Source of the DNA: Alphaproteobacteria bacterium
Lineage (GTDB): Bacteria; Pseudomonadota; Alphaproteobacteria; JANQMY01
Assembly (NCBI GenBank): GCA_028289425.1
Contig: JANQPL010000007.1
Location: 62,001 to 126,000 of the forward strand
Length of the DNA stretch: 64,000 bases
Direction: 5' to 3'
Positions within the stretch are counted from its first letter, which is position 1, and every line of letters starts with the position of its first letter. Made by a program: the position numbers and the translations under genes. Under the pieces are notes generated by a model. It had not been told where the DNA came from. It saw only the letters and a list, made by a program, of their open reading frames with translations, and did no database searches. Shown piece after piece: positions 32,589 to 61,026 of this stretch.

Positions 32589-33797
32589 TCACCTCTGTTC
32601 GTCATTGCTCGCCGCTTCCGCCTGTTTGATCTTGCTGACCGGGGTTTGAAGTGAATAAATGTTGTATTCGTCCGTATCGATATCTTCTAATTCGATGCGC
32701 CCGGAAAGAACATCATCCTTCCACGCTTGATGAATTGGCTCGCGCTCCTTGAATTCGGGCATGACTTCGCGGCCGAACAGTTCGAGGCTTGAACAAATGT
32801 CTTCGTGTTTGTTCTTGCCGGCCTGATTAAGCAGGATCACTTGATCTATATGGGCGGCTTCGAAGTCTAGCAGGCGTTTCCGAATGGTCTCTGGAGAGCC
32901 GACAAGTCCGCGGTTCGGAATCTTCTCACCCGGATTCGTTTCTTTCCATTCTTGATAACGATCCCAAAGATTGACCGACCCGGGTTCGAATGGGCCTTCC
33001 TTGTTGTAGAGGATAAGAGCGAACTGGAAGAACGACCAGCCGTCCATTTTTTCCTCCGCCTCTTCATCGGTTTCGCAACACATGAAGGGCGCGACAACGG
33101 CAAGATTCGGGTTTGTTTCGTACTCACACAGTTTATCGAGATTGCGCACAAATGCATTGTAATAGGCATGGCGCCATGCCCGAGCGGAGTCAACGTCGAT
33201 AAACTGAAAGCCCAGCGCGCCCATACCGCGGGCACCGGCCATTTTAATCGTTTCGAGCTGTGAACAGGCAACCCATAATGGCGGGTGGGGTTTCTGGATC
33301 GGCTTAGGCACCACATTACGAAGCGGAAAATCGAAATAGTCTCCGTGATATTCGTGACCTTCTTTCCAGAACATGGGCATCACGGCCTTCACAGCGTCTT
33401 CCCAGACGGCTCGTTTGTCGCGAAATTTCCGATCAAAGGGGTGCAGTTCCGTGACGCTGGACCCTTCCCCGATCCCAAGTTCAACCCGCCCGCGGCTTAA
33501 CAGATCTAGGGTGGACACGCGCTCTGCCACCCGAGCCGGGTGATTGGTGGTGAGCTGAATGATCCCGTGGCCCAACCGAATTCTGTTCGTACGCTGGCTT
33601 GCCGCACCCAAGAAGACCTCAGGTGCGGAACAATGGGAATACTCTTCCAAAAAATGGTGCTCTACCGACCATGCGTAGTCGTAACCGATGCGATCGGCGA
33701 GTTCTATTTGGTCGAGCGCATGATTGAAGAGATCGAGCTCGCTGGTCTGGTTCCAAGGCCTTGGCAGTTGAAGTTCGTAGAACACGCCAAATTTCAT
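32589..33797 (-). CDS. LLM class flavin-dependent oxidoreductase
   Basis: 402 residues, luciferase-like monooxygenase fold. VFYELQLPRPW, DRIGYDYAWSVEHHFLEEYSHCSAPEVFLGAASQRTNRIRLGHGI and RGRVELGIGEGSSVTELHPF are the conserved FMN/LLM segments of the alkanal monooxygenase branch; a long C-terminal tail ends Gln/Arg. It would need reduced flavin from a separate reductase. Sits 98 bases downstream of the PaaA-like gene and is probably co-transcribed; it could act as a Baeyer-Villiger-type or other oxygen-inserting enzyme on a CoA ester or ketone. Confidence 0.92.
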   Translation of the reverse strand: MKFGVFYELQLPRPWNQTSELDLFNHALDQIELADRIGYDYAWSVEHHFLEEYSHCSAPEVFLGAASQRTNRIRLGHGIIQLTTNHPARVAERVSTLDLLSRGRVELGIGEGSSVTELHPFDRKFRDKRAVWEDAVKAVMPMFWKEGHEYHGDYFDFPLRNVVPKPIQKPHPPLWVACSQLETIKMAGARGMGALGFQFIDVDSARAWRHAYYNAFVRNLDKLCEYETNPNLAVVAPFMCCETDEEAEEKMDGWSFFQFALILYNKEGPFEPGSVNLWDRYQEWKETNPGEKIPNRGLVGSPETIRKRLLDFEAAHIDQVILLNQAGKNKHEDICSSLELFGREVMPEFKEREPIHQAWKDDVLSGRIELEDIDTDEYNIYSLQTPVSKIKQAEAASNDEQR

Positions 33798-33895: not shown

Positions 33896-35083
33896 CTAAG
33901 CGCTTTGCGCCGCAAGACCGGCCATTTTCGCTTTGACGGCTTCCGCCATTTCGAGGCCCTTCGTTAGTGCCTCTTCCTTGTCCGGTGTTTCAAGGCCCAA
34001 ACTCTCGTTGACGCGCACCATCTCCAAATGAAAGGCATCGCGCATTTGCTGATTGCTGAGTTCCTTCAGCCCCCATTTGCGCCACATCTTGCTGTTACGT
34101 GAATCATCGGAACCGAATGATGCCATGAATTGCGGATACCAATATTCTTCGATACGACGTTGGGCGTAAGCACGCGCTTCTTCACCCTGGCGCTGGATCG
34201 AATCCCGTACATGGATGTAACCCATATTGCCATGGCCCCGCTCGTCCTTGCAGACCAGTAAGGACACCCGCGCCAACGGAGCGTAAGACGATTGCACCCA
34301 TTGGAATCCTTGGTAGACACCAAACCGATCCGCCAGCATGTTGTACAAGCCGCGGTCTACCCAATTGTTTTCCATGGCCGTTTGCTCATAGGCGCGAAAT
34401 GTCTCGCGCTCGCGCTCGTAAATCTGGACCGGGATTTCCGGATCGTACTCGCTGTAGAGTTTGTAGAACTGGAATGTGTGTTTGTATTCCTCGGCTGAAA
34501 AATTCTGTTGCCGAAGGCGAGACTCGGCGTCCGGCGCCGCCTCTAATGAAAATGCGTCGATGGCCGAAAACATGCTCTTGTGGCCTTTGGCGGCGTCGCC
34601 AAAATACGGCATCATGCATTCGCCATGTTTGAAGAACAGCTTGGACAGCCATGCCCGATATTCCTCGGGCATGTCATCGCCCGCCTCGTATTGATACGGT
34701 CGCGCGCTGACCTCAACGTCGTCAGGACGTTTAAAACTGACGTCTGACACGCCGCCAACTTCATACGTTCCGGCATTTTCGGGCAAGCCGCCCGCATCTT
34801 GCAGAAACTCGTCTGGGATTCCCGCCATAAAGGTTTGCTTGGCTTTCGGCAGTGGCCCATAGGGTTCCGAAAAATGACGCTCCATGGACCAAATGAAATC
34901 CCATTTCGACGCCTCGTTCTTCTTGAGGTACGGCTCGATAATGTCCGCCAGCTCATACAAATCTTCCGTAGAGTCCCAGACATCGGCAGGAACGTCACGG
35001 ACGGTATTGCACAACTGAGGAATGACGTCTGGGGCCGGATACCAAAGAACCTCGGCGAGTCGTTTGTCTATCGGAAATCCCAT
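33896..35083 (-). CDS. PaaA-like ferritin-fold diiron oxygenase
   Basis: 395 residues. Two helix pairs with diiron motifs ExxH are visible: E199-Y-K-H202 and E281-R-G-H284. The region SYAPLARVSLLVCKDERGHGNMG and the following EYWYPQFMASFGSDDSRNSKMWRKWGLKELSNQQMRDAF match the C-terminal half of phenylacetyl-CoA epoxidase PaaA (there SYGPYARAMVKICKEESFH and RFWWPALMMFGPNDD). PaaA normally works with PaaB, C, D and E; none is encoded here, so this is an orphan or a single-subunit variant. Controlled, I infer, by the class B palindrome 55 bases upstream. A CoA-thioester substrate is likely but unproven. Confidence 0.88.
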   Translation of the reverse strand: MGFPIDKRLAEVLWYPAPDVIPQLCNTVRDVPADVWDSTEDLYELADIIEPYLKKNEASKWDFIWSMERHFSEPYGPLPKAKQTFMAGIPDEFLQDAGGLPENAGTYEVGGVSDVSFKRPDDVEVSARPYQYEAGDDMPEEYRAWLSKLFFKHGECMMPYFGDAAKGHKSMFSAIDAFSLEAAPDAESRLRQQNFSAEEYKHTFQFYKLYSEYDPEIPVQIYERERETFRAYEQTAMENNWVDRGLYNMLADRFGVYQGFQWVQSSYAPLARVSLLVCKDERGHGNMGYIHVRDSIQRQGEEARAYAQRRIEEYWYPQFMASFGSDDSRNSKMWRKWGLKELSNQQMRDAFHLEMVRVNESLGLETPDKEEALTKGLEMAEAVKAKMAGLAAQSA

Positions 35084-36146: not shown

Positions 36147-37166
36147 TCAATCCATCTGTATAATGAGCTTTCCCGTGTTCTCGCCGTTGAACAGCTTGAG
36201 AAAGGCGTCCGGTGCGTTTTTCAATCCGGGCACCACATGCTCTCTGTGCTGGAGGGAACCGTCCAGCAGCCATTGAGCCAGTTGCGAGACGCCTTCGGGA
36301 AATCGCGAGGCGTATTTGCTCACAATAAATCCTTCCAATCGCGCATTGTGGACAAGAAGCTGCCAAAGATTGCTCGGGCCGGGCACCGGCTCCGTTGCAT
36401 TGTAGGTTGAGATGGCACCACACATCACAATGCGCGCGCCGTCTTTGAGACAATTCAGGGCGGCTTCGAGCATTGCCCCGCCCACATTGTCAAAATAGAC
36501 ATCAATGCCCTTCGGGCATTTAAGGTTTATCTCGCGCTCCAAGTCTGCGGTGGATTTGTAGTCGATGGCCTCGTCGAACCCGAACAATTCCACCAGCTGC
36601 CGGCACTTCTCTGCGCCCCCGGCAATGCCCACCGTGCGACATCCGTTTATCCTGGCGATTTGACCTACGACGGATCCGACAGCGCCCGCGGCTGCGCTGA
36701 TCAACACGGTTTCTCCCGATTTGGGCTTTCCCACATCCAACAGGCCGAAATAGGCCGTCAGCCCGGTCGTACCTAGGACGCTGAGATAAATCGACAGGGG
36801 AAGTTTGTTGTCGGCCGGGATTTTGTTGACAAAGCCGGTTCCCGTGCTGATGGAGTAATCCTCCCAACCGTTCAGCCCCATGATGAAGTCACCCGGCGCG
36901 TATGCCGCGTTTTGCGATTCCACCACTTCTGCGACCGTCACCGCACGCATCACGTGGTCAAGGGGGATCGGGGGCTGATAGCTCTCTTCACCTTCATCCA
37001 TCCATCCCCGAATTGCAGGATCCAGCGATAGATAAAGGTTTCGGAGAAGTATCTGCCCGTCTTTCAATGCCGGCAGCGCCATTTCGCGATATCCGAAATT
37101 GTCAGGCCGGGGGAGCCCCCGTGGCCGTTTCTTGAGAATGATTTGGCGATTGAGCGTGTTGGGCAT
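36147..37166 (-). CDS. Zinc-independent NADP-dependent oxidoreductase (MDR family)
   Basis: 339 residues, like leukotriene B4 12-hydroxydehydrogenase/2-alkenal reductases. N-terminal RQIILKKRPRGLPRPDNF, YLSLDPAIRGWM, and the nucleotide motif SAAAGAVGSVVGQIARINGCRTVGIAGGAEKC (Lys for NADP phosphate in the right place). No zinc-binding cysteines. Likely reduces an alpha,beta-unsaturated ketone or acyl chain. The ATG at 37166 has GGTGA just upstream. A GTG at 37175 overlapping the meaB stop is the alternative. Second gene of the meaB operon. Confidence 0.92.
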   Translation of the reverse strand: MPNTLNRQIILKKRPRGLPRPDNFGYREMALPALKDGQILLRNLYLSLDPAIRGWMDEGEESYQPPIPLDHVMRAVTVAEVVESQNAAYAPGDFIMGLNGWEDYSISTGTGFVNKIPADNKLPLSIYLSVLGTTGLTAYFGLLDVGKPKSGETVLISAAAGAVGSVVGQIARINGCRTVGIAGGAEKCRQLVELFGFDEAIDYKSTADLEREINLKCPKGIDVYFDNVGGAMLEAALNCLKDGARIVMCGAISTYNATEPVPGPSNLWQLLVHNARLEGFIVSKYASRFPEGVSQLAQWLLDGSLQHREHVVPGLKNAPDAFLKLFNGENTGKLIIQMD

Positions 37167-37171
37167 GTTCG

Positions 37172-38146
37172 TCACCGTGCATTGCCATAACGGGTCAGCA
37201 ACGCTGAAATAAGACTGTTCGACGCCGTGGCGATATCGGCCTTACCGTCACCCAAACTGTCGAGAAGCAATTTGCAGTCTTGTTGGGATGCCATATCTTT
37301 GAGATGCCAAGTGAGCGTCTCCCGCGCCGTCTTCACGATTTCATCAACAAGCCTTTGTCGACGCCGACCCAAAAGGCGGTCCTCACCTTGCAAGTAGTCG
37401 ACATGTGCTATTAGCGCATCGCAAAACGGCCCGATGCCGTGCCCCTCCGTCGCGATGGTTTCAACAATGGCTGGAGGTTTGCCGTCGAACCGGCTGTCAT
37501 CGATCAAGTTTCGCAAGTCGCGGCGCGTTTCCTGCAGGCCCGGACGATCCGCCTTGTTGATGACGAAAAGATCAGCAATCTCCATAAGACCGGCCTTGGT
37601 CGCCTGTATTGAATCGCCCCATCCCGGATTGACAACAACCGCGCAGGTATCCGCAACACTGAGTATGTCGCATTCGGATTGCCCCACACCGACTGTTTCA
37701 ATAACAACCCACGGCCATCCAAGAGAAGCGAGCAGCCGGGTTGCAAGAGGCACTGCGCTTGCTAGACCACCCAGGGCGCCGCGGTTCGCCATCGACCGAA
37801 TGAGGACCTGGTCGTCACGCACAACGGACGTCATGCGAAGACGGTCACCCAAAATAGCACCGCCCGACCGAGGGGAGGATGGGTCCACCGCCAAAACCGC
37901 CACGGACTCTCCCCTCGACCGCATCTCCGCTATGTAGGCATCGGTGAGTGTTGATTTACCCGCTCCTGGTGCGCCGGTGATGCCGACAACATGCGTATCG
38001 CCCAAGTCGACAGAGAGTTGCTGCGAAAGTTGTTGTGCGCCGTCGCCGCCAGCCTCCGCAATGGATAGAAGCCGGGCCGCGGCCCGTCGATTTCCGGATC
38101 GGGCATCGACTAAAAGGGCCTGAACATCTTGGCACAATTCGACCAC
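37172..38146 (-). CDS. meaB: MeaB/ArgK-type GTPase, mutase chaperone
   Basis: G3E GTPase of 324 residues that loads and protects adenosylcobalamin in acyl-CoA mutases. Walker A GAPGAGKST, the ETVGVGQSE switch segment, VVNPGWGDSIQATKAGLMEIADLFVINKADRPG (NKAD base-recognition motif). I set the start at the GTG at 38146, with GAGGT upstream. A longer reading from 38251 would run through two operator-like palindromes and add about 35 residues before the family's usual N-terminus. It is divergent from the mutase operon, its probable client, and followed by an MDR gene. Confidence 0.92.
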   Translation of the reverse strand: MVELCQDVQALLVDARSGNRRAAARLLSIAEAGGDGAQQLSQQLSVDLGDTHVVGITGAPGAGKSTLTDAYIAEMRSRGESVAVLAVDPSSPRSGGAILGDRLRMTSVVRDDQVLIRSMANRGALGGLASAVPLATRLLASLGWPWVVIETVGVGQSECDILSVADTCAVVVNPGWGDSIQATKAGLMEIADLFVINKADRPGLQETRRDLRNLIDDSRFDGKPPAIVETIATEGHGIGPFCDALIAHVDYLQGEDRLLGRRRQRLVDEIVKTARETLTWHLKDMASQQDCKLLLDSLGDGKADIATASNSLISALLTRYGNAR

Positions 38147-38212
38147 GTGTTTACGTAACCTCGCTGCGGCGTCCGGCCCATAATGCGGTCCCGGATCGCC
38201 ACCCCCAAAATA

Positions 38213-38228
38213 GTCTGACGCGTCAGTC
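38213..38228. promoter_or_regulatory. Class B operator-like palindrome (site B4)
   Basis: GTCTGACGCGTCAGTC differs from the B3 site at one base and keeps the 12-bp perfect core CTGACGCGTCAG. It lies between meaB and the mutase operon. Confidence 0.75.
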
Positions 38229-38249
38229 AATTTTGCGCTTAAACTTTCC

Positions 38250-38266
38250 ACTAAACAGTGTTAACT
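38250..38266. promoter_or_regulatory. Class A operator-like palindrome (site A4)
   Basis: ACTAAACAGTGTTAACT matches site A3 over the first 12 bases with a diverged right end. It lies 21 bases from B4 and 74 bases before the first plus-strand gene, so the mutase region carries both site classes. Confidence 0.65.
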
Positions 38267-38339: not shown

Positions 38340-39041
38340 ATGGCAAGCAGACTTTTCACGTCAAGCCAATTGGAGGCGATGGGACGGCGTACGCTTGATC
38401 AGTTGAACGACGCAATCGATTCCGGAGATGCCCAGCGTGCTAAAATGATTGGACAGAAGCTTTACAACGAGTTTTTGAGCCAACACGACGGGTACCGCAA
38501 TTGGACGACGGCGCTTTTAAGTGAAATCGGCCGCCGCTTTGGCGATGCGGAGCTGGACGACATCATGACGGAAACGGTGAAGTCTTGGTGGCTACCGAAC
38601 CTAGACGCCATGGACAAGGGCTCCGGTGGTGACCTTAAGGCAAAAATAAAGATGTTTGCGGCGGGGCTGCGGGGGCACCTTCAGCCCATGGACGTGGAAG
38701 AAGACGACGAAAAAGTCACCATAAAGATGAAGCCGTGCGGAAGTGGTGGCCGCCTTGTGCTTGAGGGCAAGTATGAGGGGCCGAACGCCTTTCTCAAAGT
38801 CAAGCAACCCCAAAAGATGACATATGGACGGGAAGACTTTCCGGTCTATTGCGCCCATGAAGCCGCGATGGAAGAGATCGGCATACAGAGGGACGGTAGC
38901 CCGTTTGTGGTTGTCGAGCCGTCGAAGGATCTCGGAAAAACACCTTGCTCGTTCATCATCTACAAGGATCCGGAGAAAGTGCCGGCGAAATATTACGAAC
39001 GCTTGGGTCTCACAAAGCCTGCAAAGAAAAAGAAGGGATAA
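38340..39041 (+). CDS. Unrecognised protein in the mutase operon
   Basis: 233 residues, soluble, not recognised. The N-terminal 115 residues look all-helical (FTSSQLEAMGRRTLDQLNDAI, SEIGRRFGDAELDDIMTETV). The C-terminal part is mixed and has conserved-looking polar motifs: CGSGGRL at 133-139, YCAHE at 170-174, and PCSFIIYKDPEKVPAKYYERLGL from 202. Cys 133, Cys 171, His 173 and Cys 203 could bind a metal or a cluster. The tail is Lys-rich. AAAGGG precedes the ATG at 38340, and the mutase starts 29 bases later, so the two are co-transcribed. Confidence 0.88.
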   Translation: MASRLFTSSQLEAMGRRTLDQLNDAIDSGDAQRAKMIGQKLYNEFLSQHDGYRNWTTALLSEIGRRFGDAELDDIMTETVKSWWLPNLDAMDKGSGGDLKAKIKMFAAGLRGHLQPMDVEEDDEKVTIKMKPCGSGGRLVLEGKYEGPNAFLKVKQPQKMTYGREDFPVYCAHEAAMEEIGIQRDGSPFVVVEPSKDLGKTPCSFIIYKDPEKVPAKYYERLGLTKPAKKKKG

Positions 39042-39070
39042 CCCTGCAAGATGAGCCAGTTGAGGTCCGC

Positions 39071-40693
39071 ATGACCGACGCCAAGGAATGGGCAACCGTA
39101 TCCGGTATTCCGTTGAAAGAGTACTACTCGGCTGAGGACTTGCCCGACGCTCTGGAACGCCGTGTCGGACAACGGCCGGGCGATCGTCCGTTCGTTCGCG
39201 GCGCCTATGCGGGCATGTACCGCACGAAGCCGTGGCGGATTTTTCAACTGAGCGGATACGGAAACCCTGAAGCTGAGGGAGAACGCATCCGCTTTCTACT
39301 CGACCATGGTGAAACCGGTTTCATCATGGAACACGACCGAAATACGGCAGACCATCTTTATGATGTGGATCATCCAGAAGTTGTTGCCCGGAAGGAAGAC
39401 ATCGGTTTGAACGGCGCCGTGATTTGCGGTGTCCGGGATTATGAGACCGTCTTGAAGGGCATTCCGATCGAGGAAGTTTATGGCCATCCGGGCGGAGGTG
39501 TGGTTCAACACGGGCCTTTTGCGCTCGCTTGCTATTGGACCGTGGCTCGGCGCCGGGGCCTGGATTTGGCGCGCCTCCCCGGGACGGGCCAAAGCGACTT
39601 TTTCCTGACCTATTTGGGCTGCGTCACCAAACAGCAGGTGTCGACCCGAGTGGGATTGCGGTTCAATGCGGACATCATCGAGTTCTGTGCGGAACATCTT
39701 CCCCGCTGGGTGCCTGTATCCATCGCCGGTTACAACGGCGCCGAGACCGGCCTCAACAGTTACCAAGAACTCGCGGCGGTCTTTGGCAACGCCATCGAAT
39801 ATCTGGACGAGATCAAACGCCGGGGCCGTATTCCGCTGGAGGTCGCGGCGCGCGGTGCCGGCGGCGTGAATTTCCGCGTCGGCATGGATCTTTTCGAAGA
39901 CATTGCAAAGTTGCGCGCAAGCCGTCGCATGTGGTCCCGGCTGCTTGAGACCCGCTACGGCATTACCGACGAGAAAGCGCAACGGTTGCGGATCCACAGC
40001 CTTACGGCCGGGTCTGCCATGACCTATCCCCAGCCGCTCAACAATATCGTGCGTGGAACGATTATGGCGCTGGCCGGCGTGTTGGGTGGCACGCAGTCAC
40101 TTGGGGTTTCCGGCTATGACGAGGCCATGTCGATCCCGTCGGAACACGCGCATCAGACCTCTTTGCGCATCCAACAAATACTCCAGGAAGAATCCAATTT
40201 GTGTGCGGTGGCGGACCCGTTGGGGGGCGCTTATTTCATCGAAAGTCTGACGGAGAGTCTTGAAGATAAAGCGTGGGAGTTCTTGGCGCAGATTGAGGAA
40301 CAGGGAGGTTTCCTCGCCACCCTCGACTCCGGATGGCTGCACGCGCAAGCACATGAAAATCAGCATAATGAGCAGGTTGAGGCGGACTCCGGGCGCCGCG
40401 CAGTGGTCGGGCTCAATCGCTTTTCTGAAGATTGCTCGCCATACCAAATTGACGGCTTCGAAGGAAGCACCGGCGAATGGGAAAACGCGAAGGCCAGGCT
40501 TGACGACGTGCGCACACAGCGCAGCGCGAAAGATGCAATAGCAGCTCTAAAGGAACTGGAAGCCGCATGCCGGTCAGACGGCAATGTCATGCCGGCCATG
40601 ATGGCGGCCGTCGACGCGGACGTTACGCTCGGTGAAATTGGGAATGTCTGTCGAGACGTTTTCGGTGACTGGGAAACGCCGATCGGCGTTTAG
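39071..40693 (+). CDS. Cobalamin-dependent acyl-CoA mutase, large subunit (novel specificity)
   Basis: 540 residues, the TIM-barrel substrate subunit of the methylmalonyl-CoA mutase family. Family segments: FVRGAYAGMYRTKPWRIFQ, ADIIEFCAEHLPRWVPVSIAGYN, AGVLGGTQSLGVSGYDEAMSIPSEHA and DPLGGAYF. By eye against MCM as I remember it, key residues differ: Arg87 is Phe58, Tyr89 is Leu60, Arg207 is Cys184 or Val185, His244 is Asn222, and the DLPT segment reads HDRNT (88-92). So the substrate is probably not methylmalonyl-CoA; isobutyryl-type or bulkier branched acyl-CoA are options. The ATG at 39071 follows GAGGT. The B12 domain is a separate gene. Confidence 0.92.
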   Translation: MTDAKEWATVSGIPLKEYYSAEDLPDALERRVGQRPGDRPFVRGAYAGMYRTKPWRIFQLSGYGNPEAEGERIRFLLDHGETGFIMEHDRNTADHLYDVDHPEVVARKEDIGLNGAVICGVRDYETVLKGIPIEEVYGHPGGGVVQHGPFALACYWTVARRRGLDLARLPGTGQSDFFLTYLGCVTKQQVSTRVGLRFNADIIEFCAEHLPRWVPVSIAGYNGAETGLNSYQELAAVFGNAIEYLDEIKRRGRIPLEVAARGAGGVNFRVGMDLFEDIAKLRASRRMWSRLLETRYGITDEKAQRLRIHSLTAGSAMTYPQPLNNIVRGTIMALAGVLGGTQSLGVSGYDEAMSIPSEHAHQTSLRIQQILQEESNLCAVADPLGGAYFIESLTESLEDKAWEFLAQIEEQGGFLATLDSGWLHAQAHENQHNEQVEADSGRRAVVGLNRFSEDCSPYQIDGFEGSTGEWENAKARLDDVRTQRSAKDAIAALKELEAACRSDGNVMPAMMAAVDADVTLGEIGNVCRDVFGDWETPIGV

Positions 40694-40702
40694 GGAACAA
40701 AT

Positions 40703-41122
40703 ATGCAGATTAACAAGCCAACGCGTGTGTTGCTCGCAAAGACTGGATTGGACGGTCATTGGCGCGGTGTTTCGCTGGTCGCACGCTGCCTTCGGGATGC
40801 CGGGTTTGAAGTGATCATGATCGGCATGTCCCAGCCCGACGAAATATTACAGGCGGCTATCGACGAAGACCCGGATCTGGTGGGGCTAAGCGTCGGCGGG
40901 CATGTGGATGTGGTCCATCGCATTATCGAAGGCCTTCAAGCGGACCGGCCGGAGCTGCCGATTTTTGTAGGGGGCGCCGTTGCCCCTTGGGCAAAACGCC
41001 AGATCGAAGACCGGGGTGTGGAGGTCTATCCGCCGGGGTCGTCGCTCGACGATATCGCGGAGGCCGCCTGCCGGCTGACGGGGGTCAACGACCGGGCACG
41101 TCAGAACGAACCAAGCGTTTGA
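40703..41122 (+). CDS. Cobalamin-binding subunit of acyl-CoA mutase
   Basis: 139 residues, a flavodoxin-like B12-binding domain. The base-off/His-on signature is DGHWRG (DxHxxG) in LAKTGLDGHWRGV, followed by GLSVGGH (the S in the nucleotide-tail site) and IFVGGAV. Together with the preceding gene it forms a heteromeric mutase, as in isobutyryl-CoA and 2-hydroxyisobutyryl-CoA mutases. It starts 9 bases after the large subunit stop. Confidence 0.95.
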   Translation: MQINKPTRVLLAKTGLDGHWRGVSLVARCLRDAGFEVIMIGMSQPDEILQAAIDEDPDLVGLSVGGHVDVVHRIIEGLQADRPELPIFVGGAVAPWAKRQIEDRGVEVYPPGSSLDDIAEAACRLTGVNDRARQNEPSV

Positions 41123-42656: not shown

Positions 42657-43841
42657 TTACTGCGGCGTGAGGGCCCGAATGTCTGCCTCATCCCACCCCA
42701 ATTCCGTAAGCACTTCGGTAGTGTGTTCGCCCGGAATGGGAGCATGGCGGCGCAGCGCCGTCGATAGTCCATCGTATGTAACTGGGTCCCCAACGGATCG
42801 GTACTTTCCTTCGGTCGGATGCTCCGTCACCGTCATAAAGTCGACGGCCTCTAAATGAGGATCATGGACCAAATCTTCGAGGCCTAAGACGGGGTTGCAC
42901 GGTATGGAAAACTCGTCGCAGATGTGCTGCCATTCATCCGTGGTCTTCTCTCTTGCCGCAACGGAGACGATTCCATAGAGCTCTTCAATATTCTGCATCC
43001 GCGTTTCATGTGATGCGAACTTTGGATCGTCGATCAAATCCGGCCGATCAATAATCTTAAAGAAGTCCCGCCAATTGCGGCCGGTGTAAGGCAGCAAAGC
43101 AATCCAGCCGTCAGCGCTCTTATAAGGCCGGCGTTCGCGGTTGATGAGACGGGGATATCCCGGCTTGGCCTTCGGCGGGATCAACGCAGCACCTCTAAAG
43201 TGTTCCACCAGATTAAACGCAGCCATGGTTTCGAACATGGGTACCGTGATCGTTTGTCCCTCGCCGGTTGCCCGTTGATGCAGGAGGGACGCCAAGACAG
43301 CTTGGACGATGAAAAGACTGCAAATCTTGTCGACGATCACCGAAGGCGCGTAAGCGGGCGTCCCATTAATCTCACCGAAAAGGCTGGCAAAGCCCGAAAG
43401 TGCTTGGATGGCGTCGTCATACGCCGCACGTTCGGCGTAGGGTCCGTCCTGGCCATAGCCGTTTGCCAGGCAATAGATGATCTTCGGGTGCCGCTTTCGA
43501 ACATCGTCGGCCGAAAATCCCAACCGGCCCAAAGCCGCTGCTCGCATGTTTGTGACCAGAACATCCGCCGTGGCGATCAGGTCCCACAACGCCTTCTTGC
43601 CGTGGTCGGATTTAAGATCGAGCTTGATGCTGCGCTTATTCCGATGAATATCGAGGGCAATCGCGCCGATGCCGCCGTCATCGACAGAGATCGATTCTTT
43701 TGCATGCATCGGCGCGATGTGGATCACGTCGGCGCCGTGATCTGCAAGCATTCGGCTTGCCAGCGGCCCCATGAGGACAGTCGTTAGATCCACTACCCTC
43801 ACACCCTCAAGCGCACCAGGCCTGTTCTTTTTGATAGTCAT
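42657..43841 (-). CDS. CaiB/BaiF family III CoA-transferase
   Basis: 394 residues. N-terminal LEGVRVVDLTTVLMGPLASRMLADHGADVIHI, NKRSIKLDLKSDHGKKALWDLI, and AAYDDAIQALSG with the nucleophilic Asp of the family. The C-terminal part has LEDLVHDPHLEAVDF. It moves CoA between acids, an alternative to the ligases for activation. Its ATG overlaps the TetR stop by four bases, so it is last in the DUF35/thiolase/TetR/CoA-transferase operon. Confidence 0.94.
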   Translation of the reverse strand: MTIKKNRPGALEGVRVVDLTTVLMGPLASRMLADHGADVIHIAPMHAKESISVDDGGIGAIALDIHRNKRSIKLDLKSDHGKKALWDLIATADVLVTNMRAAALGRLGFSADDVRKRHPKIIYCLANGYGQDGPYAERAAYDDAIQALSGFASLFGEINGTPAYAPSVIVDKICSLFIVQAVLASLLHQRATGEGQTITVPMFETMAAFNLVEHFRGAALIPPKAKPGYPRLINRERRPYKSADGWIALLPYTGRNWRDFFKIIDRPDLIDDPKFASHETRMQNIEELYGIVSVAAREKTTDEWQHICDEFSIPCNPVLGLEDLVHDPHLEAVDFMTVTEHPTEGKYRSVGDPVTYDGLSTALRRHAPIPGEHTTEVLTELGWDEADIRALTPQ

Positions 43842-44467
43842 CGGCCGTTTTCCCCAAGGCTTGCGCGCACCATATTGGTCGCGGCTTTGACGATTTGATC
43901 AATCGGCACCGAAGACGGATTGACCATGCGCTGTTGCACAACGCCCCGTAACATCCCCACGATCAAGACCGAAATTGAATGCACATCGATCATGGGAGAG
44001 ACCTCGCCGTCTTCGATCGCTTCTTCGATCAGCCACGCAATAGACTCGCGAAATGCTTGGTCGGCTTTCCGAGTCAGATCTTTCAGTTCCGGCGTTGCCG
44101 TGACCGACTCGATGATCGCGATGTAAATGGCTTTTGTCGTCAGGCGCCGGTTCGAGGGGCCGCGCAAATATTGTTCGCAAACCACATCAAGGCCCGCAAG
44201 ACCGCGCTGCCCATGCAGTGCGGCCTCTCGGCGGTCAATGCTTTTCTGGCGCACATCTTCCAGGACCGCACGGATACATTCTTGTTTGCTTCCGAAATGA
44301 TATGTCACCAGACCGTGACTGAGTCCGGCTGCGCGTCCGATCTCAATCATCGTGGTGCCCGTATAGCCCTTTGTGGCAAACAGGTGCGTCGCAGCTTCAA
44401 TCACTTTCATTCGCGATTCTTCGCGCCGTTCCTTTTGGGTTCGACGGGTTTTTGATTTTACCGGCAT
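43838..44467 (-). CDS. TetR family transcriptional regulator
   Basis: 209 residues. RMKVIEAATHLFATKGYTGTTMIEIGRAAGLSHGLVTYHFGSKQECI is the TetR_N domain. The C-terminal part ends MVRASLGENGR. Start at the ATG 44467 after AGGA; a second ATG two codons upstream is possible. It lies inside the operon between the thiolase-like and CoA-transferase genes, so it probably regulates this operon and perhaps the divergent ligase operon via the palindrome at 46096-46113. Confidence 0.92.
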   Translation of the reverse strand: MPVKSKTRRTQKERREESRMKVIEAATHLFATKGYTGTTMIEIGRAAGLSHGLVTYHFGSKQECIRAVLEDVRQKSIDRREAALHGQRGLAGLDVVCEQYLRGPSNRRLTTKAIYIAIIESVTATPELKDLTRKADQAFRESIAWLIEEAIEDGEVSPMIDVHSISVLIVGMLRGVVQQRMVNPSSVPIDQIVKAATNMVRASLGENGR

Positions 44468-44474
44468 ACTCATC

Positions 44475-45626
44475 CTAGCGTTTGAGGACATGAACGACAC
44501 AAACGGCGCCGACACCAACCATATGCGCCAACCCCACTTTCGCTTGCGGGTGCTGACGATCACCGGCCTCATTCCTCAGCTGGCGAACGATTTCGCAAAC
44601 CTGGCCGACGCCTGTGGGTCCGATCGGATGCCCCATCGCCAGAAGGCCCCCTGATGGACTTATGGCATGCTTGCCGCCAATGTCATACTCCCCCCGTTCC
44701 AATCGGGCCGCCGCTTCGCCCGTCCCGCACAGGCCCATGGCTTCAGCGTAGAGCAGTTCTTCGATCGAGAACGCATCATGAAGTTCAATAATATCGAGAT
44801 CCCGAGGACTCATGGAAGCCGCTTCCAATGCCTCGAATGTGGTTTTCCGTGTCAGCGCCGCGTCGGCATTTTCATCCGGCGTAAATTCCTGCAATCGCGA
44901 TGCAGAGGCGGCGACGCGTATGGCACGGTCCCGATCAATCCCCAATTTTTTTAGGGCGTCTTCGGAGGCAACAATCACCGCGGCGGCCCCTTCGCCAACC
45001 GGCGTACATTGGAGCCGCGTCAACGCCCCGGAAATCTGGGGCGGCGCCAAAACGTCTTCCAACGTCCGAACTTTTTGGCGTTGAGCAAATGGGTTACGGG
45101 CGCCATTGCCATGGTTCTTTACCGCCACTTTCGCAATCTGCTCAACCGTCGCACCGGTGTCAGCCATGTAACGCTCAGCCAACATCGCGAAGTGACTGAA
45201 CGGAACGATCAGTCCATGGTCTAGGGTTGGGACATTGGCATTGATCGGACCGCCGCGTCCGGCGCCGGCCACCGGCTTGTCTACACCGATGGCGATGCTC
45301 ACATCGGCAACACCCGACGCCACATCATGCACAGATTGACGGAAGGCTGTTGACCCCGACGCAGAGGCGTTTTCCACTTGCGCGACCGCAACGTCCGATG
45401 GGCCCAAATACCTCAGCATGGTGGATCCGGCCGCCATGCCGATGCGGGCGTTGCCCACATAGGCGGTTTCCACGCTCGGCCAGTCAACCGCAGCGTCCGC
45501 CAGCGCTGCTCGAACCGCCGTCAAGCCGAGGGTCACATAGCTCGTTTCCGTCGCATGCTGATAGCGATGAAGTCCGATGCCGACAACGTATGCCGGCCGG
45601 TCGTTCAGTATGTTCTTTGCAGCCAT
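44475..45626 (-). CDS. Thiolase-fold protein (SCP-x/Ltp2 type) without catalytic cysteine
   Basis: 383 residues. The thiolase fold is clear: VGNARIGMAAGSTMLRYLG, VENASASGST, ELHDAFSIEELL (His 283) and GGLLAMGHPIGPTG (His 333). The nucleophilic cysteine of SCP-x thiolases (VENACASGS) is Ser 88 here. Steroid side-chain aldolases of the Ltp2 type also lack a thiolase cysteine and need a DUF35 partner, and a DUF35 gene lies two bases upstream. I therefore favour a retro-aldol C-C cleaving enzyme over a true thiolase; a regulatory or inactive role is the alternative. Confidence 0.9.
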   Translation of the reverse strand: MAAKNILNDRPAYVVGIGLHRYQHATETSYVTLGLTAVRAALADAAVDWPSVETAYVGNARIGMAAGSTMLRYLGPSDVAVAQVENASASGSTAFRQSVHDVASGVADVSIAIGVDKPVAGAGRGGPINANVPTLDHGLIVPFSHFAMLAERYMADTGATVEQIAKVAVKNHGNGARNPFAQRQKVRTLEDVLAPPQISGALTRLQCTPVGEGAAAVIVASEDALKKLGIDRDRAIRVAASASRLQEFTPDENADAALTRKTTFEALEAASMSPRDLDIIELHDAFSIEELLYAEAMGLCGTGEAAARLERGEYDIGGKHAISPSGGLLAMGHPIGPTGVGQVCEIVRQLRNEAGDRQHPQAKVGLAHMVGVGAVCVVHVLKR

Positions 45627-45628
45627 GA

Positions 45629-46009
45629 CTACCCTCCGGCCTGTGACGTTGGCACGAAGACGAATTGAGCATCGTCATCATCGATGATTTGGAGGCAGCC
45701 GATGACGGCTTCGCCCACCTTGGGGTCCGGGTGGTCGAGCCGCGCGCGAACATATTGGCGGGCTTCGGTTCGCACCTCCGCCACTTGGTACGGCGTCTCG
45801 ATCTTCGGATGCACATAGACGGTCGTGAAGGAATGCAGCGTACCTTGTGAAGAAAACTCAAAGTCTTCCAAAGACCCGCCATCTGCGCCGCACGCTTCGC
45901 ACCCATAGGGTTGGGGGGGAAACAGGATGCTTCCGCAGTTTGTGCAGCGAACGCCCCTCAAGAAAATTTCGCTGCCCTTCTCAATCCACAAATCCTCACG
46001 GTCCGACAT
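45629..46009 (-). CDS. DUF35 OB-fold/zinc-ribbon protein
   Basis: 126 residues. An N-terminal rubredoxin-like zinc ribbon with Cys 22, 25, 37 and 40 (RCTNCGSILFPPQPYGCEACG) is followed by the OB-fold with SSQGTLHSFTTVYVHP. Such proteins bind acyl-CoA and form complexes with SCP-x-type thiolases or aldolases (ChsH2-Ltp2 in steroid side-chain removal). Its last codons contain the GGAGGG ribosome-binding site of the thiolase-like gene, which starts two bases after the stop, so equal expression is expected. First gene of the minus-strand operon. Confidence 0.93.
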   Translation of the reverse strand: MSDREDLWIEKGSEIFLRGVRCTNCGSILFPPQPYGCEACGADGGSLEDFEFSSQGTLHSFTTVYVHPKIETPYQVAEVRTEARQYVRARLDHPDPKVGEAVIGCLQIIDDDDAQFVFVPTSQAGG

Positions 46010-46095
46010 TTTTCCGCCCTGGCTCGCTCTCGTTACGTTGAAATCACACAGCTCTTGACTCTTTCAATGGATTGCATGAAATTACCCTACAAGAT

Positions 46096-46113
46096 ACTAG
46101 TTGGTCAACCAGT
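46096..46113. promoter_or_regulatory. Operator-like imperfect palindrome (class C)
   Basis: ACTAGTTGGTCAACCAGT is an 18-bp palindrome with one mismatched pair and two central bases. It lies between the divergent DUF35 and CoA ligase genes, where it could control both operons; the TetR of the DUF35 operon is the likely binder. Confidence 0.68.
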
Positions 46114-46139: not shown

Positions 46140-47705
46140 ATGAGCGCAACCGACGCCAACAAGATCCTACCGGCAACGATTGAATTCTGGGCGCAAGAGA
46201 AGCCAGATGCCGTGGCGATCATTGAAGGCGACCGCACTTTCACCTATGCGGAATGGAATGAGCGGGCCAACCGCTTGGCCGAAGGGTTCGCCCAAAAGGG
46301 CCTAAGTGCCCAAGACATCGTCGTCGTGCGCACCCAAATCCGAATTGAGTGGGCGATCATCAGCTCGGCTCTTGCGAAACTTGGTTGTTCCCTGCTTGGG
46401 GCGAATTGGCGGCTGACGCCTTCCGAGATCGAGTATGTCCTGAAGAATTCCGGCGCGACCGCCATTATCTGCGACGATCCAGACCCTCTCCCGCTGCGGG
46501 AAGCACTTACGGACCTTCCCATCAGGCTGGCGGTTTCGGTCGATACGCCGGCGGAAGGTTATGAGTTTTTTCCCCATTTGATGAAAAATTTCGACACAGA
46601 ACGAATCTCGAAAGGGGATGCGCCGCGCATTATTTACACGTCCGGCACGACGGGCTTGCCGAAAGGCGTCGTTTCAAACGCACAACAACTCGCGCTTAAC
46701 GATCCGAAAGTCGCAGAATATTTGCGTGATGTGGCCGCGGACCGGTCCGCAAGCCAAGACGAAGTGGTGCTCATCACCCTTCCCATGCACCACGCGGCCG
46801 GGCCGTCGGCGCTGACAGGTGCCATGCATGCCGGCAATCAAATCGTGTTGCTTCGCAGATTTGATGCCGTGGAGGCACTTAGGCTCATAGAGAAACATCG
46901 CGTAACGAATTGGACCGGCGTGCCCACGATGTTTAAGCGCATCGCTGGATTGCCTGAAAGTGTGCCGGCTCGATACGATGTAACCTCCATCAAAAAACTG
47001 GGTATTGGTGCGGCGCCGGTCACTACCGATCTGAAAGACTGGATTGAAGACTTTTTCGGCGAGGGCCTGCTCTCTGAAGGGTATGGTTCGACCGAAACAG
47101 GAATGATCACCTACATGCCGCCAGGTCGGCACAAGCTCAAGCCGGGCTCCTGCGGCCGCCTGCACAAAAATGTGGACGTTCAAATTCGTGATGAAGACGG
47201 CAAAGAGGTTGCCACCGGCGACGTAGGTGAAATCTGGGTACGGACGCCCGTTACCATCAAAGAATATCTCAATGCCGGGCCGCTTGACCGAGACACCATG
47301 GATGCCGAGGGGTTCTTTCGTATTGGCGACGTCGGGCGCATGGATGAAGACGGCTATCTCTTCATAACCGACCGTGCAAAAGACATGATTATCTCGGGCG
47401 GCGTTAATCTGTATCCGGCTGAAATCGAAGCCGCCTTAAGCTCTCACGCTGCAGTACAGGACGTGGCGGTGATCGGTATACCGAATACCGAGTTTGGCGA
47501 AGAGGTCAAAGCCTTTGTCGAGTTGAAATCCGAAGTTCAGGCGAATGCTGAAGATTTGCTTGACCACGCGGCAAAGCACCTCGCCTCGTACAAGCGACCA
47601 AAAACCATCGAAATCATCGACGAACTCCCTCGTAACACAATGGGCAAAATTCTGAAGCGAGAGCTTCGGGAACCTTACTGGAAAGGTCAGGAGCGAAACG
47701 TATGA
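46140..47705 (+). CDS. Acyl-CoA synthetase (AMP-forming)
   Basis: 521 residues of the ANL family. A3 motif IIYTSGTTGLPKGVVS, A5 EGYGSTETGMITY, A7/A8 RIGDVGRMDEDGYLFITDRAKDMIISGGVNLYPAEIE, and catalytic Lys in NTMGKILKRELRE. The ATG at 46140 follows GGGAGG; a longer reading starts inside the class C palindrome. First gene of a plus-strand operon (ligase, SDR, enoyl-CoA hydratase, two MFS carriers). It activates a carboxylic acid, plausibly one imported by those carriers. Confidence 0.95.
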   Translation: MSATDANKILPATIEFWAQEKPDAVAIIEGDRTFTYAEWNERANRLAEGFAQKGLSAQDIVVVRTQIRIEWAIISSALAKLGCSLLGANWRLTPSEIEYVLKNSGATAIICDDPDPLPLREALTDLPIRLAVSVDTPAEGYEFFPHLMKNFDTERISKGDAPRIIYTSGTTGLPKGVVSNAQQLALNDPKVAEYLRDVAADRSASQDEVVLITLPMHHAAGPSALTGAMHAGNQIVLLRRFDAVEALRLIEKHRVTNWTGVPTMFKRIAGLPESVPARYDVTSIKKLGIGAAPVTTDLKDWIEDFFGEGLLSEGYGSTETGMITYMPPGRHKLKPGSCGRLHKNVDVQIRDEDGKEVATGDVGEIWVRTPVTIKEYLNAGPLDRDTMDAEGFFRIGDVGRMDEDGYLFITDRAKDMIISGGVNLYPAEIEAALSSHAAVQDVAVIGIPNTEFGEEVKAFVELKSEVQANAEDLLDHAAKHLASYKRPKTIEIIDELPRNTMGKILKRELREPYWKGQERNV

Positions 47706-48493
47706 CAGATATTCTCGATTTAGCAGGGCGCGTCGCCTTTGTGACCGGTGCGGGACAAGGTGTGGGCCGGCAAATTGCGCTGCACTTGGCGTCACACAAT
47801 TCCAACGGTGTTGCCGTCAACGATTACTTTCTCGACCGCGCCGAAGCCGTCGCGGAAGAAATCAAACAAGCTGGCGGCAAGGCCTTCCCGGTTCAAGCGG
47901 ACGTTTCCGACTATGACTCCGTGCACGAAGCCCATGCAAAAGCCGTGGAGAATCTCGGACCGATCGGTGTCCTCGTGAACAATGCGGGCAATGCGGGCGT
48001 CAATCCGGATCCGGACCTCAGAAAGCCGTTTTGGGAAACCAATCCCGACGTGTGGAAAAGCTATATCGGTGTGAACTTCGACGGCGTGCTCAACTGCACC
48101 AGCGCCGTAATCCCGGGCATGATCGAGGCCAATGGTGGGCGCATCATAACCATCATCTCAGATGCCGGCCGCTGGGGCGATGCGGGCATGGCTCTCTATG
48201 CAGGTGCCAAGGCAGGAGCGGCCGGTTTCATGCGATCCGTCGCACGAACACTGGGCCGATATCAGATTACCGCCAACTGCATTGCGATCGCGGCTACCGT
48301 CACGCCTGCAACAGAAAAACGCATGATGGGCGACCCGGAGCAAATGAAGCGCGTGATGCAAAACTACATCATTCGCCGACCCGGTCAGCCTACGGACGTT
48401 GCCAATATGGTGTTGTTCCTCGCCTCTGACTCGAATAGCTGGATCACCGGCCAGACCTATCCGGTCAATGGCGGCTTCACGATGGCGCTGTGA
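47702..48493 (+). CDS. SDR family oxidoreductase
   Basis: 263 residues. TGAGQGVG cofactor motif, NNAGNAGVN, IISDAG with the catalytic Ser, YAGAK as YxxxK, and NGGF at the C-terminus. The Asn-Asp after strand 2 (AVNDYFLD) suggests NAD. Probably a 3-hydroxyacyl-CoA or ring-hydroxyl dehydrogenase of the pathway. It overlaps the ligase stop by four bases (ATGA), so the two are translationally coupled. Confidence 0.94.
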   Translation: MTDILDLAGRVAFVTGAGQGVGRQIALHLASHNSNGVAVNDYFLDRAEAVAEEIKQAGGKAFPVQADVSDYDSVHEAHAKAVENLGPIGVLVNNAGNAGVNPDPDLRKPFWETNPDVWKSYIGVNFDGVLNCTSAVIPGMIEANGGRIITIISDAGRWGDAGMALYAGAKAGAAGFMRSVARTLGRYQITANCIAIAATVTPATEKRMMGDPEQMKRVMQNYIIRRPGQPTDVANMVLFLASDSNSWITGQTYPVNGGFTMAL

Positions 48494-48502
48494 GGGAACC
48501 CC

Positions 48503-49279
48503 ATGAGCGACGGAACAAGCAATCGAATACTGACGGAACAGCGGGGCCCCATCCTCGTCGTGACCATCAATCGGCCGGAGGCCAAGAATGCGTTCGACGA
48601 TGAGTCCTCCCATGCCATGTGTACGGCTATGGATATGCTGGATGAAAAAGATGAGCTGTTCGTGGGGATCATCACCGGTGCGGGAGGCAATTTCTCCGCC
48701 GGCGCAGATTTGAAAGCGGCCGCCAAGGGCGAGCGCGGCCCTCGGCCTCACCGGGGCGGGTTCGGCATTATGAAACGCCCCCCACGAAAGCCGGTTATAG
48801 CGGCGGTGGAAGGCTATGCGGTCGGCGGCGGCATGGAAATGTGTCTCTGTTGCGATCTGATCGTTGCCGCGCGCGATGCAAAGTTTGGGCTGCCCGAAGT
48901 GCGCCACAACGTGGTCGCGATCGGCGGCGGACTGTTCAGATTGCCGCGCCGCCTTCCCTATCACATCGCCATGGAAATGGCTCTGAGCGGCGAATTTAAG
49001 GACGCGGACCTCTTGGAACGCTATGGGTTGGTGAACCGTATCTCGGAACCGGGGGCCGCGCTCGATACGGCTATTGAGCTTGCGGAGAAGCTGCTTGCGA
49101 ACGGTCCCACTGCCCTTGCGGCGAGCAAAGAGATCATTTGGCAATCGGCCGATTGGACGGACCAAGAAGCTTGGGACAACCAAATGCCGATCGCCATGAA
49201 GGCGATCGACTCGGAGGATCGCCGGGAAGGATTGAAGGCATTCGCGGAAAAACGCAAACCGGTTTGGAAAGGCCGCTAA
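48503..49279 (+). CDS. Enoyl-CoA hydratase/isomerase family protein
   Basis: 258 residues of the crotonase fold. FSAGADLKAAAKG and EGYAVGGGMEMCLCCDLIVAA form the oxyanion hole; LPEVRHNVVAIGGGLFRLPRRLP is the catalytic-glutamate region with one Glu (PEV) and no second one. The C-terminus FAEKRKPVWKGR is the usual tail. It starts 9 bases after the SDR stop. With the ligase and SDR it forms a beta-oxidation-like set. Confidence 0.93.
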   Translation: MSDGTSNRILTEQRGPILVVTINRPEAKNAFDDESSHAMCTAMDMLDEKDELFVGIITGAGGNFSAGADLKAAAKGERGPRPHRGGFGIMKRPPRKPVIAAVEGYAVGGGMEMCLCCDLIVAARDAKFGLPEVRHNVVAIGGGLFRLPRRLPYHIAMEMALSGEFKDADLLERYGLVNRISEPGAALDTAIELAEKLLANGPTALAASKEIIWQSADWTDQEAWDNQMPIAMKAIDSEDRREGLKAFAEKRKPVWKGR

Positions 49280-59499: not shown

Positions 59500-61026
59500 A
59501 TGAAGCAATTGTCAGGTTTGGATGCCGGTTTCATCGCGATGGAACGGCCGCATGCTCCCCTTCACATTGGAAGTTTGCTCATCTTTGATCCATCAACGGC
59601 CCCGGGTGGATTTGTCCGCTTTAAGGACATTCTCGACTTCGTCGGCAAAAGACTGCACATCGCGAAAATGCTGCGGCGGCGGTTGGTCAGAACGCCGTTG
59701 GACATCGATTATCCCTATTGGATCGAAGACCCAGATTTCGATCTCGAATACCATATCCGCCATATAGCGCTGCCGAAACCTGGGGACTGGCGCCAATTGT
59801 GCATCCAGTCCGCGCGCCTTTTCGCCAGACCCATGGATCTGACGCGCCCACCGTGGGAAATTACGGTGATTGAAGGGTTGGACAATGTGGAAGGTGTGCC
59901 GCCGGGCTGCTACGCAATGATGGTGAAGTTCCATCATTCGGCCGTCGACGGCCAGGGGTCCGGACAAGCGTTGCTTGCTATTCTTGATACGCCTGAATTA
60001 GATGAGTTCTTCGCTCAAAACAAAGAGTGGCACCCGGAAAAAGAACCAAACAAGATCGATCTCTTTGTGCGGGGGTACTTCAAAGCACTCTTCAATCCTA
60101 TTCGGCAAATAGGGGTGGTCACCAGTTCTATTCCGGCGCTGTTTCGAATGGCCCGCGGTGTCTTGAGCAATGAGTATGACGTCAGTGCCATGACCGAGGC
60201 ACCGAAGATCAGGTTTAACGAAAGGATTACTTCGGCGCGAGTCTTTGGCGCCGAATCTCTTCCGCTTGAAGGCATCAAAGCGATCAGAGACCTATCCCCC
60301 GGCTGCAAGGTTAACGACGTCATGCTGTCCCTTGTCGGGGGCGCGCTTCGAAAGTACTTGGATGCCCATGGCGAATTGCCGAACGAGTCACTCTCCACAG
60401 CGGTCCCAATTTCGGTGCGCACCGAAGAAGAATGGGACAAAGAAGGTAATGAGGTGACGGGCATGGTCATCCGGCTGGGAACGCATATTGATGATCCGGC
60501 AAAGCGGCTGGTGTCCGTCCATGACGAGACCGCGAAGAACAAAGCCATGACGCATGCCGTTGGGGCGCGCCGCTTGGCGGAACTCAACAAATCGGCGCCT
60601 ATGTTCAGTCTTGGTCTTGCCGCCAGGCTCTTTGTCGACACGGGCTTGTCTAGTTCCCGTGCGTTTATCAATACGATCATCACGAACGTGCCGGGTGGGT
60701 CGGACCCCATGTATTCAACCGGTGCAAAATTGTGTGCGTCGTATGGAATGATGTGCTTGCCGGATGGGATGGGGCTTGGGCACACCGTTACGAGTTACCT
60801 GGGAAATGTCACAGCTTCATTCACCGCATGCCGCAAGATGATGCCGGACCCGGAGTTCTACTCACAATGCATCCGAGACTCTTATGACGAACATATCAAC
60901 GCTGTGGGATATAAGCCCAAGCCGGCTAAACGAAAGACATCACGCAACAGCGCAAAGCCGAACGCGGCATCGCGGTCAAAGCGTAAGACAAAATCATCGC
61001 CGACACAGATAGCGCCGTCACCATAG
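59500..61026 (+). CDS. Wax ester synthase/diacylglycerol acyltransferase
   Basis: 508 residues. N-terminal LSGLDAGFIAMERPHAPLHIGSLLIF and the catalytic HHxxxDG as HHSAVDG (about residues 147-153), with PLDIDYPYWIEDPDFDLEYHIRH upstream. The second domain has NDVMLSLVGGALR and NTIITNVPGGSDPMY. It joins acyl-CoA to an alcohol or diacylglycerol to form storage esters, associated with the membrane or lipid bodies. The C-terminal 40 residues are Lys/Ser/Pro-rich, not part of the domain. Product type (wax or triacylglycerol) is unclear. Confidence 0.95.
   Translation: MKQLSGLDAGFIAMERPHAPLHIGSLLIFDPSTAPGGFVRFKDILDFVGKRLHIAKMLRRRLVRTPLDIDYPYWIEDPDFDLEYHIRHIALPKPGDWRQLCIQSARLFARPMDLTRPPWEITVIEGLDNVEGVPPGCYAMMVKFHHSAVDGQGSGQALLAILDTPELDEFFAQNKEWHPEKEPNKIDLFVRGYFKALFNPIRQIGVVTSSIPALFRMARGVLSNEYDVSAMTEAPKIRFNERITSARVFGAESLPLEGIKAIRDLSPGCKVNDVMLSLVGGALRKYLDAHGELPNESLSTAVPISVRTEEEWDKEGNEVTGMVIRLGTHIDDPAKRLVSVHDETAKNKAMTHAVGARRLAELNKSAPMFSLGLAARLFVDTGLSSSRAFINTIITNVPGGSDPMYSTGAKLCASYGMMCLPDGMGLGHTVTSYLGNVTASFTACRKMMPDPEFYSQCIRDSYDEHINAVGYKPKPAKRKTSRNSAKPNAASRSKRKTKSSPTQIAPSP

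Follow-up and report, generated by a model that had tools for sequence, protein, structure and literature searches.

A DUF35-linked thiolase-fold protein with serine at the acyl-enzyme cysteine position, and its possible role in the thiolase step of an acyl-CoA pathway

The described thiolase-fold systems closest to the protein studied here differ from one another at four key positions, i.e. the nucleophile, the His of the HDxF motif, the third residue of that motif and the His of the GHP motif. In type 1 SCP2-thiolases (6hrv, 6hsj), which have no DUF35 partner, these residues are Cys-His-Cys-His, so that both cysteines (CxS and HDCF) accompany the histidine pair. Benzoylsuccinyl-CoA thiolase (BbsAB, 7pxp) is built from a DUF35 and a thiolase subunit; BbsB keeps the Cys nucleophile and reads Cys-His-Ala-His, with the motifs HDAF and GHP, and is without the second acid/base Cys. 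The bbs operons also contain SDR, CaiB and crotonase genes.

Other members of the superfamily lack the acyl-enzyme Cys. The steroid aldolase Ltp2-ChsH2(DUF35) (6ok1), in which the ChsH2 DUF35 domain is fused to a MaoC domain, has Gly-Tyr-His-Tyr at the four positions, and PMC12329534 gives Tyr294 of the YDHF motif of TcLtp2 as the base and Tyr344 as the acid. The bile acid aldolase Sal-Shy(DUF35) (9myr), in which Shy has a C3H1 zinc finger, reads Gly-Tyr-Cys-Gln; Tyr302 and Cys304 of the YDCY motif of CtSal are catalytic, and the Y302F and C304A/S/H variants are inactive (PMC12329534). Two further proteins without the Cys are MsTLP1, which has the motif YSCF, Gly in place of the Cys and no GHP motif, and TbSLP, for which the same paper gives the motif YDCF and for which no DUF35 partner is reported. 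Serine replaces the Cys of a thiolase fold in DpsC, which has the triad Ser118-His297-Asp302; DpsC is, however, a priming ketosynthase that transfers acyl groups from acyl-CoA to ACP and has no DUF35 partner (PMC12664062). In the DUF35-linked acyltransferase PhlC the C88S variant is inactive (PMC6392133), and serine is therefore no free substitute for cysteine.

We analysed a gene coding for a protein of this fold in a 64-kb stretch of DNA (the window), which is a lipid or terpenoid catabolic region. The features used below are as follows.

44475..45626, minus strand: Ser-type thiolase-fold subunit, 383 aa (from ORF, HMM, alignment, tree and model)
45629..46009, minus strand: DUF35 protein (zf-ChsH2 + OB_ChsH2_C, by HMM matches), 126 aa, predicted partner subunit
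43838..44473, minus strand: TetR-family regulator, ATG one base past the thiolase-fold stop
42657..43841, minus strand: CaiB/type III CoA-transferase, start overlapping the TetR stop (ATGA)
46140..47705, plus strand: AMP-binding acyl-CoA ligase, ATG at 46140, ORF open from TTG 46101
47702..48493, plus strand: SDR dehydrogenase (GxxxGxG and YxxxK), predicted 3-hydroxyacyl-CoA dehydrogenase
48503..49279, plus strand: crotonase (PRK08252 subfamily, above cut-off), predicted enoyl-CoA hydratase
46094..46111, minus strand: operator-like motif TGGTTGACCANNTAGTAT between the divergent operons, candidate regulator site
45363..45365, minus strand: codon TCT for Ser88, thiolase acyl-enzyme Cys position (by alignment, Ser in 86/86 members and Cys in 36/36 controls)
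44778..44780, minus strand: codon CAT for His283 of HDAF, which in SCP2-type thiolases belongs to the oxyanion hole and which Ltp2, Sal and TbSLP replace with Tyr
44772..44774, minus strand: codon GCG for Ala285, replacing the acid/base Cys of HDCF in SCP2-thiolases, likewise Ala in BbsB
44760..44762, minus strand: codon for Glu289, candidate triad member from its conservation in the main Ser clade
44628..44630, minus strand: codon for His333 of GHP (GHPIG), Tyr344 in Ltp2 and Gln352 in Sal

The DUF35, thiolase-fold, TetR and CaiB genes run head to tail, with 2 bases between the first pair, 1 base between the second and the ATGA overlap at the third, and the TetR gene is placed in the operon because its ATG follows the thiolase-fold stop so closely. 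The original prediction had located the DUF35 gene two bases upstream, and the DUF35 stop does lie 2 bases before the thiolase-fold ATG. The sequence of the DUF35 protein contains a C4 zinc ribbon (Cys22-x2-Cys25-x11-Cys37-x2-Cys40), unlike the C3H1 finger of Shy, and no MaoC domain is fused to it, unlike ChsH2; on the model of BbsA, ChsH2 and Shy, the two proteins are probably partner subunits. This operon diverges from that of the ligase, SDR and crotonase genes, and the stretch between the two holds the sole exact match to TGGTTGACCANNTAGTAT in the 5.4-Mb genome. The same motif occurs at the equivalent place in the close relatives L026, L027 and L028, and its uniqueness, intergenic position and retention in these three relatives support joint control of both operons by a putative protein that binds it. 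The CaiB genes of L026 and L028 are 68-70% identical to that of the window.

The thiolase-fold protein is a member of the thiolase superfamily, in its SCP2/BbsB-like branch. PF00108, PF02803 and PF22691 all score above cut-off, which gives it thiolase N- and C-terminal domains, and it aligns end to end with BbsB, its closest sequence match in the PDB (7pxp, E=2e-64), and with an SCP2-thiolase (6hsj, E=3e-60). The AF2 single-chain model (pLDDT 90, pTM 0.92) gave a Foldseek TM score of 0.88 with both 6hrv and BbsAB 7pxp, compared with 0.78 for Ltp2 and 0.79 for Sal. Alignment to solved thiolases puts Ser88 on the acyl-enzyme Cys column, where VENASASGS replaces the VENACASGS of thiolases. Both oxyanion-hole motifs, HDxF and GHP, are present (His283 and His333). 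The second acid/base Cys is missing, with Ala285 in HDAF and AHMVGVG at the CxG position. The Cys-to-Ser change and the retained histidines of the original prediction are therefore borne out. At the four key positions the protein reads Ser-His-Ala-His, and its active site, judged from the aligned residues, is BbsB-like with a serine. BbsB itself falls outside the clade of Ser proteins, and the window cassette differs from the BbsAB system in its AMP-forming ligase.

The comparison with the aldolases gave a different picture. Tyr294 of Ltp2 and Tyr302 of Sal align with His283, Tyr344 of Ltp2 and Gln352 of Sal align with His333, and Ala285 stands at the position of Sal Cys304, so that the Y-D-x-[F/Y] of Ltp2, Sal and TbSLP is H-D-A-F in the window protein. 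The match to Ltp2 6ok1 (E=2e-17) was far weaker than that to BbsB. In an IQ-TREE tree of 102 rows the Ser proteins were nested among Cys thiolases (29 rows with support of 96/64, and a core of 26 rows with 100/99), and a branch with support of 99/100 parted them from Ltp2, 4u4e and the Tyr-type paralogues. The same genome codes elsewhere for separate Tyr-type proteins, one of which matches 6ok1 at E=1e-83, and a retro-aldolase function is more plausible for these than for the window protein. Its Ltp2/Sal-like genes lie at C16:226487-227689 (L115), C19:445389-446516, C16:169227-170306 and C17:107744-108781 (L113), and the Tyr motifs read in three of its paralogues are YDCF (L115, the C16:226487 gene), YDGF (L115, 9336) and YDSF (L113).

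We then looked at how far the serine is conserved. Position 88 is Ser in all 86 members compared (the window protein and 85 relatives, i.e. 80 genome loci and 5 plasmids, at identities of at least 47%) and Cys in all 36 superfamily controls from the same and related genomes; some Tyr-type paralogues misalign at this column (L115_9336 reads Ser) and were ignored. Such conservation rules out a chance mutation or a pseudogene as the origin of Ser88. The 80 loci, about 55-86% identical to the window protein, came from a genome-wide search with the motifs HDAF[STA][IV]EE and GxGxHxYQ, so that the invariance of those residues is in part a product of the search, whereas the Ser88 column lies outside the motifs; in motif-free HMM searches all matches above 500 bits also carry Ser, HDAF and EE. 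The hosts are Alpha-, Gamma- and Deltaproteobacteria, Binatota, Actinobacteria, Chloroflexi, Planctomycetes, Myxococcota and Bacillus. Among plasmids, a search with the protein returned seven records at 48-55% identity, with the next at no more than 41%. The main Ser clade is nevertheless uncommon (4/385 genomes sampled in the class and 4/398 in the phylum), and there is a second, remoter Ser group of about 40% identity that reads VENASATGS and HDAFPIEE.

The Ser clade also keeps invariant a number of residues that few Cys thiolases share, among them Tyr22, Asp116, Gly211, Glu212, Glu289, Tyr293, Met331, Pro337, Gly341 and His379. Glu289 is present in all main-clade Ser88 proteins and is Ala, Thr, Asn or Gly in nearly all Cys proteins; its conservation is partly biased by the search motif, although it also appears in the motif-free HMM matches. 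As proof of a catalytic triad it was rejected and is only suggestive, because of that bias and because the Cys protein L204 also has Glu289. Two haloarchaeal plasmid proteins apparently lie outside the main clade, one from Halococcus dombrowskii (L150, 4989-6158) with HDAF, Glu289 and Gly at position 88, and one from Halorussus vallis (L216, 4031-5155) with Ser at the Cys position; these are apparently further losses of the nucleophile. Five bins of different phyla in a single metagenome, IP29b, carry the Ser-type gene (L026, L027, L028, L029 and L079), the four closest proteins being 73-86% identical to that of the window, which suggests horizontal spread of the gene within this community.

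The gene neighbourhoods point to a role in CoA-thioester catabolism, as originally predicted, and the DUF35 pairing proved to be conserved, with a DUF35 gene found by tblastn beside the thiolase-fold gene in 79 of the 85 homologous loci. We compared the 70 Ser loci outside a syntenic Acidimicrobiia group with 38 control loci, nearly all of them Cys thiolases. Within 4 kb, an SDR gene was present at 57% of the Ser loci, 28% of the controls and 25% of the Tyr-type loci, a crotonase gene at 48% compared with 13% of the controls, and a ligase gene at 42% compared with 21%; these percentages are descriptive, as related loci are counted as independent. Another thiolase was found in the fetched flanks of only 1/85 Ser loci, so that, if the gene set constitutes a pathway, the Ser protein must be the one that cleaves. 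In plasmids of Cupriavidus and Salipiger, Cys-type members of the BbsB clade fill the same slot in DUF35-thiolase-SDR-crotonase(-CaiB) operons.

We therefore favour, with a probability of roughly one half, the reading that the window protein forms a complex with DUF35, in which it is the catalytic subunit and, with Ser88 where thiolases have the Cys nucleophile, carries out the thiolase step in a dedicated acyl-CoA pathway. From the gene families and their order, the local ligase would form the acyl-CoA, the crotonase would hydrate it and the SDR would oxidise the product to a beta-keto acyl-CoA. His283 and His333 would then stabilise the enolate of the departing acetyl- or propionyl-CoA, as in the aligned SCP2-thiolases and BbsB, while a retro-Claisen reaction would break the C-C bond. 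Ser88 would take up the acyl half and hand it on to CoA or water, or water might attack directly, and by analogy DUF35 may shape the cleft so that a bulky or branched acyl group can bind. This reading is supported by an active site that equals that of BbsB but for the nucleophile, and further by the tree position, the fold comparison, the SDR enrichment, the lone thiolase at these loci, the Cys-type equivalents in the same slot and the precedent of DpsC; moreover, a substrate of the beta-keto type agrees better than one of the beta-hydroxy type with the recurring ligase-crotonase-SDR set, in which there is no other thiolase. Against it stand the inactivity of PhlC C88S, the loss of the acid/base Cys with no replacement identified, and an aldehyde dehydrogenase gene that lies beside the Acidimicrobiia genes and 3 kb away in the window and would suit an aldehyde product. 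The stronger version, i.e. a widespread serine thiolase that cleaves beta-keto acyl-CoAs through an acyl-O-serine, possibly with a Ser88-His283-Glu289 triad (DpsC has Asp as its third residue) and with the catalytic Cys independently replaced, is tentative.

The aldehyde dehydrogenase also bears on the alternative that survives best, in which the protein is an independently evolved retro-aldolase. Here His283 or Glu289 would deprotonate the beta-hydroxyl, held by Ser88 and backbone amides, and His333 would stabilise or protonate the acetyl-CoA enolate, with an aldehyde or ketone as the other product. Both cysteines are lost; Sal has Gly at the Cys position; those solved relatives that lack the Cys, are linked to DUF35 and have a known function are aldolases; and the Halococcus relative with Gly88 implies that a covalent nucleophile may be dispensable in some of these proteins. 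An aldehyde dehydrogenase gene adjoins the Ser-type gene in about 15 syntenic Acidimicrobiia loci, and one lies in the window at 41152, yet no enrichment was found near the Ser loci outside Acidimicrobiia (12% compared with 7%, p=0.53). A search extending 10 kb from each of 20 Tyr-type loci detected none either, and we rejected its adjacency as a discriminator of aldolase function. The protein also lacks the Ltp2/Sal tyrosine, without which Sal is dead (PMC12329534), and belongs to a separate clade, and the conserved SDR would draw on the same beta-hydroxy substrate, a competition like that of Hsd4A with Sal (PMC12329534). We consider this alternative doubtful.

It is improbable that the protein is a non-thiolytic enzyme of the thiolase fold, e.g. 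one that decarboxylates beta-keto acids or makes C-C bonds by condensation, and that Ser stands for Cys because no acyl-enzyme forms. The oxyanion hole is intact, and TbSLP, without the thiolase Cys set, slowly decarboxylates malonyl-CoA according to PMC12329534; however, the neighbourhood is catabolic and beta-oxidation-like, and Sal has no decarboxylase activity (PMC12329534). A catalytically dead paralogue serving as a scaffold or regulatory subunit would explain the loss of both catalytic cysteines but is very unlikely, as Ser88, both histidines and numerous further residues do not vary from phylum to phylum and no active thiolase is encoded alongside. Least probable of all is membership of the Ltp2-ChsH2/Sal-Shy steroid aldolase family, which the original prediction had proposed from the missing Cys nucleophile and the adjacent DUF35 gene, and which we rejected: the comparison of active-site tyrosines, which that prediction had itself put forward as a check, finds His283 and His333 in their place, the protein lies in another clade, its model resembles SCP2-thiolase and BbsAB more closely than Ltp2 or Sal, its DUF35 partner has no MaoC fusion, and true Tyr-type relatives that match 6ok1 more strongly are encoded elsewhere in the genome.

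In the Cys-less relatives with motif data (MsTLP1, Ltp2, Sal and TbSLP) the HDxF His has become Tyr, and the GHP His is also changed where checked. The Ser clade, which our literature search found described in no paper, thus looks, at the level of motifs, like a third active-site design, in which both thiolase histidines are kept, Cys is replaced by Ser and the aldolase Tyr is absent. Its spread through Proteobacteria, Actinobacteria, Chloroflexi, Planctomycetes, Binatota and Bacillus raises a clean question: is this a serine-based thiolase, or another origin of CoA-aldolase chemistry? It also calls for caution in annotation, since neither the fold nor DUF35 alone is sufficient for naming such genes thiolases or Ltp2-type aldolases.

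In Acidimicrobiia the Ser-thiolase/DUF35 pair occupies a constant position in the chromosome, where it often follows AzlC/AzlD and adjoins a convergent aldehyde dehydrogenase together with acyl-CoA dehydrogenase and PhyH genes (loci L045, L049, L053, L056, L064-L066, L072, L076, L078, L086, L088 and L099), which suggests a housekeeping role there. In the window, a split B12-dependent acyl-CoA mutase is encoded at 38945-40693 (large subunit, plus strand) and 40703-41122 (B12-binding subunit, plus strand), with a MeaB GTPase at 37172-38251 (minus strand). Its closest solved relative is 2-hydroxyisobutyryl-CoA mutase (E=4.5e-93), but it has Leu and Glu at the positions of the RQIAGF Ile and the STDFD Asp of that enzyme, so that its substrate may differ. 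We considered the mutase as part of the conserved Ser-thiolase set and rejected it, as it is absent from every homologous locus examined. A 395-aa protein encoded at 33896-35083 (minus strand), with only a weak match to PaaA/PaaC (phenylacetate oxygenase), adjoins a luciferase-like monooxygenase (32589-33797), and the two are possibly an unusual oxygenase pair. The window also holds a P450 (28708-29991), a second AMP ligase (25350-26888), a curcumin-reductase-like dehydrogenase (36147-37175) and a wax ester synthase (59500-61026), and about 400 bases beyond its right end, on the minus strand, lies a gene for an SCP2-type Cys thiolase with NCASGS and HDCF motifs (C15:126403-127563, L106 from 403).
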